NCBI GenBank assembly: GCA_003132025.1 | Contig: PKWJ01000009.1 | Span: 631 to 64,630 of the forward strand | Source: Gammaproteobacteria bacterium | GTDB taxonomy: Bacteria; Pseudomonadota; Gammaproteobacteria; Steroidobacterales; Steroidobacteraceae | Length of the DNA: 64,000 bases | Reading direction: 5' to 3' | Shown here: piece by piece, positions 5,236 to 11,042 of the stretch | Position numbering within the stretch: the stretch's first letter is position 1 | Layout: the number at the start of each line of letters is the position of its first letter | Translations under genes and position numbers: made by a program | The notes under the pieces: model-generated | The model's input: only the letters and a program-made list of their open reading frames with translations | What the model was told of the DNA's origin: nothing | Databases searched by the model: none

Positions 5236-5553
5236 CACACCTTAAAACAATTAGTTATGCATACTTTCTAAAATTGACATCAGAACGTAGTGATGCTGCC
5301 TCGCCCACGACGAACTGGCGGCTCAGCACGTTCACGATCCGGTGCCCATGCCGCCGCTCTGCTTCTATCCGTGCCTCGCGAACGCAATAGGCGCCGCGAT
5401 GACTCGTTCCGCGCACACGATCACTCTGCCGGCGTCGATATCAGAAACGCCCCCTGGCAGGATCAACCCGGCCGCGTGAACTCGGTCGCATACAGGCAAT
5501 GGATTTCGGTTAACTATTCCCGGTGGCAACGTCCGTGCGGAGCTGATTCAGCG
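5236..5553. other. Intergenic stretch without recognised gene
   Basis: About 320 bp between cadR and a small phage-like gene. The frames open here (track entries at 5085 and 5290) have no family resemblance and read as shadows or as a 5' overextension. No hairpin with a T-run and no tRNA was noticed. Confidence 0.5.
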
Positions 5554-5976
5554 ATGATCAAGACCTACAGCCTGTATGAAGCAGCCACTGGATTGTTTAC
5601 GGGCAAGCGCCTGCATTGTGACGACGAAGGGCTGCTCGCCGTCAGATTGCCCGCCGGTACACTGGCGCTGGAAGGGGCCTACGACCACCGCAGCCAGCGA
5701 ATGGATCTGAGCACCGGCGCGGTGGTGGGCTACCGACCGCCGGCGCCCTCGGGCGATCATGAATGGGACAACGTCGGCAAGCGCTGGCAGGTCAAGGCCG
5801 CCGTTCGCGGTGCCGAGAGCCGCACCGCGGTGATCTATGCGCGAATCCAGGCACTGGAGGCAACCCAGGGCCGCGCGGTCCGCGAGGCCACCCTGGGTGA
5901 TGCCGCAGCGATGAAGCGTCTTAAGGAGATCGACGCCGAAATCAACGACCTCAGGAAGGAACTCGCCCGCGGCTGA
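5554..5976 (+). CDS. Orphan phage-tail-assembly-like hypothetical protein
   Basis: A 140-aa protein if the internal ATG at 5554 is used. The upstream part of the track ORF is Arg-rich and unlike a protein start. The segment YDHRSQRMDLSTGAVVGYRPPAP followed by a WDNVGKRW motif resembles short proteins found beside tail-fibre genes in phages and prophages, where a DHxSQRVD...TGxVVxYQPP pattern is common. The C-terminal third (ALEATQGRAVREATLGDAAAMKRLKEIDAEINDLRKEL) is a predicted amphipathic coiled coil, also usual there. No other phage gene adjoins it, so it is either a relic of a lost prophage or a domesticated gene. I do not assign a function. Confidence 0.55.
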   Translation: MIKTYSLYEAATGLFTGKRLHCDDEGLLAVRLPAGTLALEGAYDHRSQRMDLSTGAVVGYRPPAPSGDHEWDNVGKRWQVKAAVRGAESRTAVIYARIQALEATQGRAVREATLGDAAAMKRLKEIDAEINDLRKELARG

Positions 5977-6120
5977 TCCGGCGAGTCGTAGCGCCGGCGA
6001 AAACGGGAATGGGCGCGCTAATGCAAGGCATTGCGCCGCAGCATGGACCTATTGCGATAACTGCGCGCACTATGCAATTGCGCTCCTGGCGTGAGCACGT
6101 CGTTGATCGGAGAGTTAAGG

Positions 6121-7161
6121 GTGGCGTCGTCCGCATCGTGGCGCCCCTGGCCATCATTTCCCGGCGTTTCGCGTCGGCAGTTCGTGGGCTGCGGTGTGTC
6201 CTCGCTGGCGCTCGCCCCGATGACCGGATGGCCACAGAGCGCACCCCAGGATCGCAGCGTCGGCCAAGCCCCCGGCACGCCCGCGCCGGAGCAAGCCGTC
6301 GATAGGATGGCCGCCGCCACCGATGCCGACCAGCATCTCACGGTCGAAGTACGGATCGATGGCGCTGGACCATTTCAATTCGTCGTCGATACCGGCGCCG
6401 ATCGCACCGTGATTTCTGAGGAAGTCGCCGCGTCCCTGGGCCTGCAGCGCGGGCCGCAGGTCAAGCTCAACGGCATCGTGCGCTCGCTAGCCGCCGATAC
6501 GGTGCTGATCGCCAATTTTTCGCTAGGGTCGGTGGTGCGCAATAACCTGAAGTTGCCGGTGTTGCCGCGCTCCCTGCTGCAAGCCGACGGCTATCTTGGC
6601 CTGGACACGCTCGATGGACTGCGGGTGACTTTCGATTTCAGGAATCATGCGCTGGAGATTGATAGGGCGCGTTCCAGATTCGCCTCTTCATCTTCACCTT
6701 CCGCCTATAAGGTTGGATCCAACGACGCGCGCGTGCTCGCCGAAGGCTCGTCCGGGCACCTGCGGACGGTCGACTGCCACGCCGGCGGTGTCCCGGCGGC
6801 GGCCTTCATCGACAGCGGCGCCGAAGTGTCGATCGGCAACACGGCGCTGCTCGACGCAATGTTGGCTCGTCATGCCACTCGTCTCGACCTCGCTACCGTG
6901 CAGGTGAGCGGCATCACCGGCGGACAGATTGCGGGGCGTTTGGCGTTGATCGACAAGATCCAACTGCAGCGGCTCAAATTCACCAACTGCCCGCTGGTGA
7001 TCGTGGATCTGCGGGTGTTCGACATCTGGGGCCTGAGCAATAAACCGGCACTGCTGATCGGGATGAATTACCTGCGGGAATTCGCCAGCGTAGCGATCGA
7101 CTACCGCCTCAAGGAAATCCGCTTCGATCTGGCCAGCCTGCTGGTCGCCGGGCCGGCCTGA
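6121..7161 (+). CDS. Exported retropepsin-like aspartic protease with two catalytic motifs
   Basis: A 346-aa protein if the GTG at 6121 is used, which follows GGAGAGTTAAGG. The track start, GTG at 6091, is also possible. The N-terminus contains SRRQFVGCGVSSLALAP, a Tat-like or Sec signal. Two clan AA aspartyl motifs are present, FVVDTGADRTVIS and AFIDSGAEVSIGN, about 140 residues apart, each followed by a hydrophobic stretch typical of the retropepsin fold. Tandem motifs imply a single-chain pseudo-dimer, as in other bacterial clan AA proteins, since one active site needs two aspartates. Likely periplasmic, substrate unknown. The gene is isolated between a phage-like gene and a convergent TIR-like gene. 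Confidence 0.75.
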   Translation: MASSASWRPWPSFPGVSRRQFVGCGVSSLALAPMTGWPQSAPQDRSVGQAPGTPAPEQAVDRMAAATDADQHLTVEVRIDGAGPFQFVVDTGADRTVISEEVAASLGLQRGPQVKLNGIVRSLAADTVLIANFSLGSVVRNNLKLPVLPRSLLQADGYLGLDTLDGLRVTFDFRNHALEIDRARSRFASSSSPSAYKVGSNDARVLAEGSSGHLRTVDCHAGGVPAAAFIDSGAEVSIGNTALLDAMLARHATRLDLATVQVSGITGGQIAGRLALIDKIQLQRLKFTNCPLVIVDLRVFDIWGLSNKPALLIGMNYLREFASVAIDYRLKEIRFDLASLLVAGPA

Positions 7162-7172
7162 TATGCCGGCAG

Positions 7173-8471
7173 TTAACGCGGCCGCCCCGGAGGAAATCCA
7201 TGCAGCGCTGCGGGGCGCGGCGCTCCTATTGCCTCGTGCAGCAAGCCAAAGAACTCCAGCAGGAATTTGTCCATGGCGCCCTCGTCCTGGGTCTTCAGGG
7301 TGCGCCGCAGCGTGACGTCGGCCTTGCGCACCGGCCCGCGGATATCGTCCGGGGACAGCCCCAGATGAAGTCCCAGGACGCCCACCAGCCCGCATTCGAC
7401 CTGCCAGGGCGGACTCAGGGACAGCGACTGCTGTGCGAACGTCATGAGCGCCCGCAGGTTGTCATAGAAAACACGCTCAAACACTACCGAGGACAGGAAT
7501 GGCAGTTTGATCCACGCCGGACGTTCGCCGCGTTCGTGCGCCACCAGGGCCGCACTCAGGCTCCACAGCTCACCGCTCGGGAACAGCTGGGTCGACGCGG
7601 CGAGTCTTCCACGCCCGCGTCCGGGTTGTGCGCCGACCTCGAAGCCTAAGGCTCCATAGCTGTTGCTGCCGCTCAGCGCGCCTCCCGGCTGGCGGCTGAG
7701 CAGTGGAGCCTTCCCGACCACTGCCATTAGAGTCGCCAGCGGCAACTCGCTCTGCAGTGTCGGAATTGGAATCAATCGCAGATAGCAAAACGTGTCGGCC
7801 GAATACGCGTACGAGGTGCCCGAACCGTGCGACTCTCCCGCCTGCGCCAGAACCTCACCAGCCTGGAAATACACTGCCTTGTTGAAGGTCGCGGGCGTGG
7901 CGGCCGACAGCTCCGGCCCCGGTACGGGTTCCTGGATGCATCGATCAATAGCGCTGACCAGCCTCGCACTCAGCTTCTTCCTCTCCGACTCGATTTCCGG
8001 TCGCCCGGCATTCGGCGCCAGAGTGAAGGTGATGGCATCTTCCCGGCTGCGGACATCGAACGGCAACTCGTTCTGCCATCCATAGTGGGCATTGAATAGA
8101 ACGATCAGCTTCAGATCGCCCAGTGCGCGCAACGCGTAACCCAGTTCCATCGCCACGTTGGAGTTGATGAGCCTGTGACCGACGGTCTCCGCCTGCATGT
8201 CGGCTCCGCTTCCCACCTTACCGATGGCGGTCACGTCGGCAACGAACATGTCCGCGACATCGATGCTCTTCAGAATCGCGCGTAGCGGTCCGACTCCGCC
8301 CGAGATTCGTTCCGGATCGTGATCGATCATCGGCGCGTCGCGTTCCGGCTCATCGATTTCGGCTGTGATCTTGAGTTGATCGATCGCTTCCTTCAGGGCA
8401 TCGCGAACAAGAACGCGCCCGATTCTTTGGGGTGTTTCCGATTGCCACGACCAGAAGACCTTTATCGCCAC
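7173..8471 (-). CDS. TIR-like/nucleotide-binding N-terminal domain protein, candidate defence effector
   Basis: A 432-aa cytosolic protein beginning with GTG, preceded by GGAAGGA. The first ~150 residues open with IKVFWSWQSETPQRIGR and contain FVADVTAIG and INSNVAMELGYALRALGDLKLIVLFN. This Rossmann-like pattern, with a conserved Glu in the ELGYAL helix (E109), resembles TIR-like and predicted nucleotide-binding domains whose glutamate is catalytic in NAD+-cleaving members. Residues 160-432 are not recognised. They have no membrane span and may be a sensor. Proteins with this N-terminus are often found in defence or accessory regions, and this one stands alone between small orphan genes. NADase or antiphage function is inference. 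A plain hypothetical protein remains possible. Confidence 0.6.
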   Translation of the reverse strand: MAIKVFWSWQSETPQRIGRVLVRDALKEAIDQLKITAEIDEPERDAPMIDHDPERISGGVGPLRAILKSIDVADMFVADVTAIGKVGSGADMQAETVGHRLINSNVAMELGYALRALGDLKLIVLFNAHYGWQNELPFDVRSREDAITFTLAPNAGRPEIESERKKLSARLVSAIDRCIQEPVPGPELSAATPATFNKAVYFQAGEVLAQAGESHGSGTSYAYSADTFCYLRLIPIPTLQSELPLATLMAVVGKAPLLSRQPGGALSGSNSYGALGFEVGAQPGRGRGRLAASTQLFPSGELWSLSAALVAHERGERPAWIKLPFLSSVVFERVFYDNLRALMTFAQQSLSLSPPWQVECGLVGVLGLHLGLSPDDIRGPVRKADVTLRRTLKTQDEGAMDKFLLEFFGLLHEAIGAPRPAALHGFPPGRPR

Positions 8472-9146
8472 CGCGTCCTTCCCGGTCGCTGCTGCCGCAT
8501 AGCTTCGGCCCCCGTATTCTCCGCCAATGGCGCAATCGGCGTTATGCCGATTTGCCGGGCAATACAGAGGCCAATAGTGCCGGGGACGCAGTGCCAGCGT
8601 CCAGGTATCCTTGGCACGGCGGACGCAGCAGTCGCATCAACCAGCGTTCGCATCCCGGCCGACGCGACACATCAAACGGCGCGAGCGCGCGTCATTAACG
8701 ATTCCCTGCTCAGCGGCGGCATCGAAGTAGATGAGTTGTCGCGGCGCCCCAGGCGCCGCATGTGGTCGTCCGAGCATGGCAGCATCTAAGTCTGATCGGG
8801 ATTGCCGAGTCGCTTCGCCGTAGCTGCAGACACAATCGGAGGCTAGACCAAAATCACGCGACGTATCGCGGCAGAAATCGCGAAGACTCATGGCGAATAT
8901 TCTTGGAGCGCGGCTTACCGACTGCATCGAGTGATCTTCAATTCAAAAGATATAGTGCTGCGAGTCAGCTTTAACGTGCCGTCCGAGGCCTATCGTTGCG
9001 AACCGTCAGAATCGCCAGAGGGCTGTCGATCTCCACGCACGTAAACGATGTTCAACGAACGTTCCGCTGCTACATGCATCACTCTGCTCAGGTCTATAGT
9101 TCGGCCTAGGACACGCGATCGCGATGTAACTTTCGAGCACAAGAAA
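8472..9146. other. Gap with no supported gene
   Basis: About 675 bp upstream of the TIR-like gene and downstream of the repeat protein. The track ORFs here (8319, 8432, 8637, 8762) overlap one another on both strands, lack ribosome sites and resemble no family I know. Base composition is lower in GC than in the flanking genes. It could be eroded coding DNA. Confidence 0.5.
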
Positions 9147-9167
9147 AAGGGCCGGATTTCGGCCCTT
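9147..9167 (-). terminator. Rho-independent terminator for the repeat-protein operon
   Basis: An 8-bp perfect stem (AAGGGCCG / CGGCCCTT) with a 5-base loop. On the minus strand it is followed by TTTCTTG, a T-rich tract, so it ends minus-strand transcription coming from the gene that stops at 9320. Confidence 0.7.
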
Positions 9168-9290
9168 CGTAGCATTCGACAACAAGTTTCTTTTTTTGAA
9201 TTCTTCGATTTCTGATGCGCGGCATCAACGCCTATACAGATGTTCCGGTCAATGAGCGTACGCTCGGTCGTGCAGCGTTACTGCCAGCGA

Positions 9291-9590
9291 TGCCTTCGGT
9301 GTGCGTTGCTTCCCGTGACTCACATGGTTCCAGAGTTGCTACCCGTGATGCCCATGGTCCCGGCATTGCTGCCAGTGATTCCCATAGTCCCGGCATTGCT
9401 GCCGGTGATGCCCATGGTCCCGGCGTTGCTGCCGGTGATACCCATGGTCCCGGCATTGCTGCCAGTGATTCCCATAGTCCCGGCATTGCTGCCGGTGATG
9501 CCCATGGTCCCGGCGTTGCTGCCGGTGATGCCCATGGTCCCGGCGTTGCTACCCGTGATGCCCATGGTTCCGGCATTGCTTCCCGTGATT
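9291..9590. repeat. 30-bp tandem repeat array, about 9 good units plus one degenerate
   Basis: Consensus on the plus strand is close to cccatggtcccggc followed by attgctgccggtgatg. Eight units from 9351 to 9590 match closely, one from 9321 is diverged, and a tenth degenerate unit (from about 9291) lies beyond the stop codon of the host gene. Units 9351-9440 and 9441-9530 form a 90-bp higher-order duplication that I read as differing at one base. The array encodes the decapeptide GITGSNAGTM on the minus strand. There are no spacers, so it is not a CRISPR array. Confidence 0.95.
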
Positions 9591-10165
9591 CCAGCGGACC
9601 GCACTCTACTGCCCGTCATGGCTGCGACCCCGGCCATACCGGCACCGGGAATTGCCATTGCGGCTCCTGCAGTTCCAGCACGTGTAGTAGATCCCAGAAC
9701 GAGCCCACCAATTTCCGGCTGGATACCTGCTACGGCGACCATGTCGCCCTTATTGGGCACAGTCGCGCCCTGTTCGGACAGGGCTGCGGTGTAATCAATC
9801 TCACTGTCACCGATAGACAAACGGCCAGAGGTTTCATCGACGCTCGTAACAATGCCGGTCTCGAATACGCGATCGGAACCTGCAACATACGAGCCCAACG
9901 GTTCCGCCCACGCGTAGGCCACTGACCCGTCCGGCATCAGAGACCCATGTATGGCCACCTTGTCTCCCGACTCGAGCCCAGCGGTGTCGTCGATATGATA
10001 GGAACGACCAAGCACCGTGACGCCACTTGCCTCAACTAATTCCACAGGCCCTACTGCCACCACGTCGGCGGCGGCGTTCGATGAATCGGCGTTAGCCGCA
10101 GACACCAGGCCCATTGCTAATAGAGACGACACGCAAAGTCTAATTGTTGTTGAATAGTCAGCCAT
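9320..10165 (-). CDS. Secreted DUF5666-like protein with C-terminal GITGSNAGTM repeats
   Basis: A 281-aa exported protein. The ATG at 10165 follows AAGGGGA and opens a signal peptide (MADYSTTIRLCVSSLLAMGLVSAANA). The track's extra 34 residues lie in the upstream gene. Residues ~30-150 contain two beta-rich units (VELVEASGVTVLGRSYHIDDTAGLESGDKVAIHG and GIVTSVDETSGRLSIGDSEIDYT) like the DUF5666 barrel repeat. After a Gly/Ala linker, nine copies of a decapeptide GITGSNAGTM (the last GITGSNSGTM) run to the stop codon. Such short Gly/Ser/Thr repeats often make extended or beta-solenoid surfaces. The gene starts 10 bp after the DUF6502 gene and should be cotranscribed with it. Function is unknown. 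A surface or adhesin-like role would be a guess. Confidence 0.75.
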   Translation of the reverse strand: MADYSTTIRLCVSSLLAMGLVSAANADSSNAAADVVAVGPVELVEASGVTVLGRSYHIDDTAGLESGDKVAIHGSLMPDGSVAYAWAEPLGSYVAGSDRVFETGIVTSVDETSGRLSIGDSEIDYTAALSEQGATVPNKGDMVAVAGIQPEIGGLVLGSTTRAGTAGAAMAIPGAGMAGVAAMTGSRVRSAGITGSNAGTMGITGSNAGTMGITGSNAGTMGITGSNAGTMGITGSNAGTMGITGSNAGTMGITGSNAGTMGITGSNAGTMGITGSNSGTM

Positions 10166-10175
10166 AGTCGTCCCC

Positions 10176-11042
10176 TTAAAGATTCGCCGCAGCGCGGGCG
10201 TCGGTCGCAATTGAAGGCTCGTTTGGCGCGTCATACATGAAAATGTCGACACCAACTCGTTGACCATCCAACGCCTCTAGTTCCGGTCTGCTGGAGGTCA
10301 TCCATGCATCTAAAGTCTCAAGAAATCTGGCGCCGTCGATCGCGAGCCACTCTCTGATGGCTCTCCGACCGTCTTCAGATACTGGAAAATCCGTTTGAAC
10401 GGCGCGCTCGAGGTAGCCAACGGACGACTCCTCGAGAAGGTTATGAGTCAACGTCCCGGCCAATGCTCCCAGCACAGTCCCGATACGTGAAATGCGCTCG
10501 ACGCTTACTCCGGCGGGAATGTACGCACGGTTAGTACAGCGGACGAACTCCTGGTCGTGAACTTCGACACAGCCGGCAGCCAGCAACTGATCCAGTACAG
10601 CATCTGGATCGGATTCAGGTGCAGACGTGTTCACGAGCTCACTGAAAGTGCGATGCCGGCCACTCGGAGTCAGTGACAGATCAACCGCCACACCGTATGG
10701 AGTCGAGAAGCGCGTGTCGGTGTTCCAGGCTGTTAGGACTGCGGCCGGTGTCATCAGAGCGGACGTCTTCAGCTCGCGCCGTCTCGTTGAGGCACTTCGC
10801 TCGTTGAGATGCTTCTCGACCTCGCCGCGCGTTAGTCCCGTCATGAGAGCCAAACGTGAAGCAGTGGTGGGACGACCCTCATCCGTCAGAATTTCGGCGG
10901 TGTCATAGACGAATAGGCGTGCCAGCGTTTGCGATAGATCGTGGTGAGTGACGCCGTAATTGCGAAAAAGCGGCATCAGCGGCCGAAGCAATGCTTCGAT
11001 CGCGTCGATCAACGCTGCTCCCTGTGCGTCCCTGTTGTCCAA
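10176..11042 (-). CDS. DUF6502 family protein
   Basis: A 288-aa cytosolic protein that matches my knowledge of DUF6502: an N-terminal helical region with LLRPLMPLFRNYGVTHHDLSQTLARLFVYDTAE, then a helix-turn-helix-like block TTASRLALMTGLTRGEVEKHL, then a less conserved C-terminal part ending with a FLETLDAWM helix. The middle block suggests DNA binding, but no function is established. It lies 10 bp upstream of the secreted DUF5666-like repeat protein on the same strand, and the two probably form an operon. A TTGACATAAG inverted repeat lies just upstream and may include the -35 region. A regulatory role towards its secreted neighbour is inference. Confidence 0.7.
   Translation of the reverse strand: MDNRDAQGAALIDAIEALLRPLMPLFRNYGVTHHDLSQTLARLFVYDTAEILTDEGRPTTASRLALMTGLTRGEVEKHLNERSASTRRRELKTSALMTPAAVLTAWNTDTRFSTPYGVAVDLSLTPSGRHRTFSELVNTSAPESDPDAVLDQLLAAGCVEVHDQEFVRCTNRAYIPAGVSVERISRIGTVLGALAGTLTHNLLEESSVGYLERAVQTDFPVSEDGRRAIREWLAIDGARFLETLDAWMTSSRPELEALDGQRVGVDIFMYDAPNEPSIATDARAAANL

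Follow-up and report, generated by a model that had tools for sequence, protein, structure and literature searches.

The TIR gene and its neighbourhood

The locus lies within a 64,000-nucleotide stretch of a gammaproteobacterial contig (the window) and carries an open reading frame that reads on the minus strand from a GTG at 8471 to a stop at 7173, encoding 432 residues; the coordinates, strand, length and motifs given for it in the original prediction were all correct. Because the frame is open and its product is 74% and 53% identical to homologues in two other genomes of the genus, 7173-8471 is, judged from its sequence, a gene rather than a chance frame. At 62.4%, its GC content differs little from the 63.7% of the window. 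Positions of its parts are collected in Table 1.

Table 1. Features of the TIR gene, in window coordinates
Feature	Position	Strand	Basis
Full gene from GTG start to stop, encoding 432 aa; protein with TIR domain and C-terminal module	7173..8471	-	ORF, homologues
Purine-rich, Shine-Dalgarno-like GGGAAGGA, few bases 5' of the GTG start (putative)	8476..8483	-	sequence; inference
CAP12/Pycsar-type TIR domain, residues 1-182 (motifs FWSWQSE, DVT, NSNVAMELGYAL, LPFD)	7926..8471	-	relatives, structure, motif
Codon of E109, predicted catalytic glutamate (motif spacing matches SfSTING E84)	8145..8147	-	alignments
Linker, residues 183-191, low-confidence	7899..7925	-	AF2 model
Alpha+beta module without a model, residues 192-432 (YLR..P, N.YGA, TQLF..GE.W, GFPPG)	7176..7898	-	profiles, alignments

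The gene is patchily distributed: among 14 further genomes of the genus 2 carry it, and it is missing from every other genome sampled in the family. A scan of genome contigs with strict patterns recovered the two known congeners and nothing further. Full-length homologues were found on plasmids, in Alphaproteobacteria and in viral contigs, and those recovered from plasmids by tblastn include proteins annotated 'TIR domain-containing'. Gene order around the TIR gene in G008 is the same as in the window; in G011 the TIR gene is placed elsewhere, and the DUF6502-DUF5666 pair, its flanking genes in the window, is about 10 kb off.

By Pfam, the neighbours of the gene encode aspartyl protease, DUF5666-like, DUF6502, MerR and Rieske proteins. 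None of the neighbours tested matched PHROGs, no recognisable defence or phage gene was found in the gene's own neighbourhood with Pfam or PHROGs, and the window contains no N letters, so that the 'phage-like genes and gaps' reported earlier around the gene are not borne out. A search of the neighbours revealed no nucleotide cyclase gene, and the window protein gave no CNBD, STING or SAVED match; membership of a CBASS or Pycsar system was rejected for want of a cyclase neighbour and of a cyclic-nucleotide receptor domain in the protein, and membership of Thoeris for want of a ThsA partner gene among the neighbours.

Several features of the flanks were recorded in passing. Convergent with the TIR gene lies a retropepsin-like aspartyl protease gene (6091-7161, plus strand; PF13650, E 1.8e-25), and at 5290-5976 (plus strand) an ORF without Pfam or NCBIfam match is kept in G008 (86%) only after about residue 83, so that its true start is probably internal, near MIKTYSLYEAATGLFTG. 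Upstream of the TIR gene, 848 bases (8472-9319) are without an evident conserved gene, and are followed by a minus-strand gene (9320-10267) with a weak, below-cut-off DUF5666 match and then about ten almost identical copies of a 9-residue repeat of the GTMGITGSN type; this gene and the DUF6502 gene at 10176-11042 form a pair kept in two congeners, with the repeat varied in G008.

N-terminal TIR domain

No direct match to the window protein was found in Pfam, NCBIfam, PADLOC, PHROGs or PDB sequences, and the TIR family assignment was made through relatives and structure, since the protein itself matches no TIR model. The CAP12/Pycsar TIR model (PF10137, cut-off 24.7 bits) was exceeded by two relatives (L009, 30.4 bits, E 4e-7; L010, 27.0 bits), with four more below the cut-off (L005, L006, L007, L011), and it outscored PF05014, whose matches to relatives were weak, in all relatives matching both. 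The catalytic motif N-V-x-x-E-x-G is present, with E109 as its glutamate, which is invariant in every alignment made; ten diverse full-length homologues share F6, W9, Q10, R19, D79, V106, E109 and G111 without exception, and the predicted NAD-cleaving residues S8, N105 and E109 are invariant or nearly so. In SfSTING the active site is lined by S10, R78 and N80, with E84 catalytic (PMC9402430); the spacing of N105 and E109 equals that of N80 and E84, and S8 stands in place of S10. A 12-member TIR profile aligned to the solved PycTIR structure 8jsj around the NV..E.G motif, weakly (E 0.13).

Structure prediction and search, as proposed with the original prediction, used an AF2 model from ten sequences (pLDDT 76.2, pTM 0.53, moderate confidence) that replaced a six-sequence one (pLDDT 70.6). 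Its best match in the viral library BFVD was a Cap12/Pycsar TIR protein (E 1.5e-8), and TIR-STING (9lmq) was among the top PDB matches; in the PDB structure search, flavodoxin and nucleoside-deoxyribosyltransferase (NDT) folds reached scores similar to those of TIR. NDT, flavodoxin-like and TIR domains are related Rossmann-like folds, so similar structure scores are expected; hence the fold alone does not settle the matter, and sequence family and motif do. Taken from its relatives and the model, the N-terminal half is assigned as a TIR domain of CAP12/Pycsar type. The earlier TIR call therefore stands on the PF10137 matches of relatives, the structure matches and the conserved catalytic motif, and its SLOG alternative is not supported, no SLOG family having been matched. 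The TIR- and PNP-associating SLOG, TPALS (PF18178), was likewise rejected as a candidate, with no match in the window protein or the homologues scanned. Separately, five viral contigs (L031, L032, L035, L041 and L043) encode the same type of TIR with several other, unrelated C-terminal domains, which indicates that the TIR clade as a whole is modular.

C-terminal module

The C-terminal part, described beforehand as unrecognised and 270 residues long, indeed matched nothing in Pfam, NCBIfam, PADLOC or PHROGs, but its length is about 240 residues. The AF2 topology is that of a two-part alpha+beta unit without a recognised ligand pocket, and its fold is left undecided by Foldseek because the matches listed are mostly Rossmann-like proteins aligned to the N-terminal half. 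A suspected likeness to the C-termini of some Schlafen AlbA_2 proteins was tested on collected AlbA_2 loci, on which the TIR-linked C-terminal profile matched L061 (32.7 bits) and L055 (17.9 bits) across the greater part of its length and L065 marginally (6.8 bits), the other AlbA_2 proteins scoring below zero bits. The C-termini of other TIR families also scored below zero bits against the module profile, from which the match is taken to be specific. Diverged copies of the module may be present in L065 and L067, and no conclusion here draws on them.

A tblastn search with L061 added further plasmid proteins (TIR_2, AlbA_2, and archaeal with a weak Mrr_cat match). Profile-profile comparison of the TIR-linked with the AlbA_2-, TIR_2- and Mrr-linked C-termini gave a probability of 98.8 (E 6.6e-17) and a score of 112.5 over 181 columns, compared with 199 column shuffles that averaged 12.8 and reached at most 20.9, and with 12.8 for the reversed profile. 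By these sequence comparisons, TIR- and AlbA_2-linked proteins have a C-terminal module in common. The domain was found most often behind AlbA_2; a phylum-wide search covering 399 genomes recovered the module from 12, where several of the proteins were AlbA_2 proteins, and viral scans with the C-terminal alignment alone returned only the query.

An effector-associated domain (EAD) was considered as an identity for the module and rejected. EADs, as described by Kaur et al. (2020, PMC7159879), are small domains that recur on a protein of the core system, which is mostly encoded in the same operon; the module is about 200-240 residues long and present as a single copy in the window's genome, with no second copy found there.

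Exchange of the enzyme domain

The module stands behind enzymes of several kinds. In a Planococcus protein it follows a canonical TIR_2 domain (PF13676, E 2e-32), and possibly it also follows an Mrr-like nuclease, as an archaeal plasmid protein with the module gives a weak, below-cut-off Mrr_cat match (E 0.0055). On the Bradyrhizobium plasmid p172_1 (L008), a C-terminal domain 36.9% identical to that of the window protein (E 2e-30) follows PNP_UDP_1 (E 2e-16); this fusion is represented by that one frame-broken locus, no intact example having been found. A tree of the domain puts the PNP-linked copy inside the TIR-linked group as neighbour of the window's genus (91/88 support). On the Schlafen-linked side, the TIR_2- and Mrr-linked copies group with one another (96/93). 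Long branches and open forks limit the detail that can be read. All N-terminal labels together require five changes on this tree, which indicates more than one exchange of the enzyme at the N-terminus. That an unnamed domain is joined to such different enzymes suggests a common and previously undescribed part for sensing infection or triggering.

Mobile and defence context of homologues

Homologues of the window protein were found in mobile and defence surroundings, with plasmids, prophages and conjugative elements among their carriers. On a viral contig (L037) the homologue lies near PtuA/PtuB of Septu (E 2e-127, 8e-71) and PD-T4-7, and in L008 it adjoins AbiEi/AbiEii; in L050 it is surrounded by genes of a T4SS and a relaxase, and a SIR2_2 gene is close by. 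Taken as a group, the C-termini of L037 and L050 belong to the module family with a probability of 99.0 (E 7e-18); by itself L037 matches weakly (9.8 bits). Other homologues lie near a probable prophage integrase (L026, viral contig), near a recombinase and a DNA methyltransferase (L036), and between a Tn3 transposase and an integrase (L007). This context is an association and not proof of function.

Two gene arrangements beside homologues were also noted. On an Agrobacterium plasmid a 294-aa gene without Pfam match (L006:9242-10126) starts two bases past the stop of the TIR homologue, and is a possible partner in that lineage. Downstream of the homologue in L036, a gene with a weak HATPase match and an adjacent 609-aa protein without match (L036:2410-5331) could be an undescribed defence pair.

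Comparison with known systems

With the CAP12/Pycsar effector TIRs (TIR-STING, PycTIR), the window protein shares the TIR fold and the N-V-x-x-E motif, and its relatives pass the PF10137 cut-off, whereas the protein itself falls short of that model, carries its TIR at the N-terminus without a STING or cyclic-nucleotide-binding domain, and has no cyclase gene alongside. Its C-terminal domain is homologous over about 180 columns to that of bacterial Schlafen AlbA_2 proteins (PF04326), but its own enzyme is a TIR and gives no PF04326 match. PNP effectors (PF01048; Cap17 of CBASS, Detocs; PMC10952713) are approached by L008, in which PNP_UDP_1 takes the place of the TIR ahead of the most closely related C-terminal domain; the domains that accompany known Cap17 systems are different ones, for example the SLOG domain PF18178, which was not found here. 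Swarozyc (DUF4062; PMC13174449) likewise combines a TIR-like NADase with an additional domain and acts with a phage portal, but the window protein has no DUF4062 match in Pfam and belongs to a different TIR clade. The single-protein NADases SpbK and DSR2 are triggered by a phage protein (PMC12847820, PMC11087589), and the likeness to them lies in the proposed scheme, by which a single protein senses a phage protein directly and NAD+ is lost; no relation by sequence was seen.

Alternative explanations

The TIR domain might make a signalling nucleotide, a cyclic ADP-ribose isomer, to which a separate effector encoded elsewhere in the genome responds, instead of depleting NAD+. Bacterial TIRs of Thoeris signal in this way (PMC11204291, PMC11312562), and the catalytic glutamate would be the same; yet no ThsA-like or other effector gene adjoins the window gene or appears in the annotated tables of those homologues that were read, TIRs of the CAP12/Pycsar clade are known as NAD-depleting effectors, and exchange with a PNP or nuclease domain fits a terminal effector. 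With no partner gene beside the window gene, Thoeris-like signalling is improbable. A housekeeping enzyme of nucleotide metabolism, NDT-like or of flavin type and unrelated to defence, would account for NDT, DNPH1 and flavodoxin-like proteins among the structure matches and for the weak PF05014 matches of relatives, but not for the higher PF10137 score wherever both models match, the very patchy distribution, the mobile and defence context of homologues, or a C-terminal module common to other effector families, and we regard it as very improbable.

The C-terminal domain could instead be an oligomerisation or substrate-binding scaffold (for RNA or ribosomes, for example, as in Schlafen), with the trigger coming from another cell component. 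Its being commonest behind AlbA_2, an RNase family, and its two-part topology lacking a recognised ligand pocket are in keeping with this; a substrate-specific role is, however, hard to reconcile with a domain that has moved between effectors whose substrates are unrelated, and the homologues stand alone with no constant partner gene. On balance a scaffold of this kind is rather unlikely.

Proposed mechanism and implications

The window gene by itself probably constitutes an abortive-infection system: its C-terminal domain would sense or assemble, and the TIR domain would destroy NAD+. The solitary effector-plus-sensor reading advanced in the original prediction gains from the independent placement in G011, the defence and mobile context of homologues and the swapping of the C-terminal domain between effectors. 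In an uninfected cell the protein would be kept inactive; a phage component, or a change caused by infection, would engage the C-terminal domain (192-432), upon which the protein would oligomerise, a step proposed by analogy with known TIR biology, and the TIR domains (1-182) would build composite active sites around E109 and cleave NAD+ until growth or phage production ceases. NADase activity, C-terminal sensing and phage protection are what we infer for this protein. The C-terminal domain would serve as a receptor or assembly module of general use, coupled in the course of evolution to a TIR, a Schlafen-type RNase, a PNP and possibly a restriction-type nuclease.

More tentatively, at somewhat short of even confidence, the C-terminal domain may be a universal prokaryotic infection receptor or activation module, of one fold and responding to the same class of trigger, carried on at least three to five enzymes (CAP12-type TIR, TIR_2, Schlafen RNase, PNP and possibly Mrr) across Proteobacteria, Bacillota and Archaea, each fusion being a one-gene immune system. 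TIR NADase, Schlafen and PNP effectors are all well known already; the novelty appears to lie in a common C-terminal module without a model that links them, and a literature search of incomplete coverage found no paper naming this domain. To our knowledge, little has been established about the way in which lone TIR and Schlafen proteins of bacteria recognise phage. A homologous module behind enzymes with unrelated targets predicts a common, testable trigger, and one profile of the module would reveal many unannotated one-gene systems.
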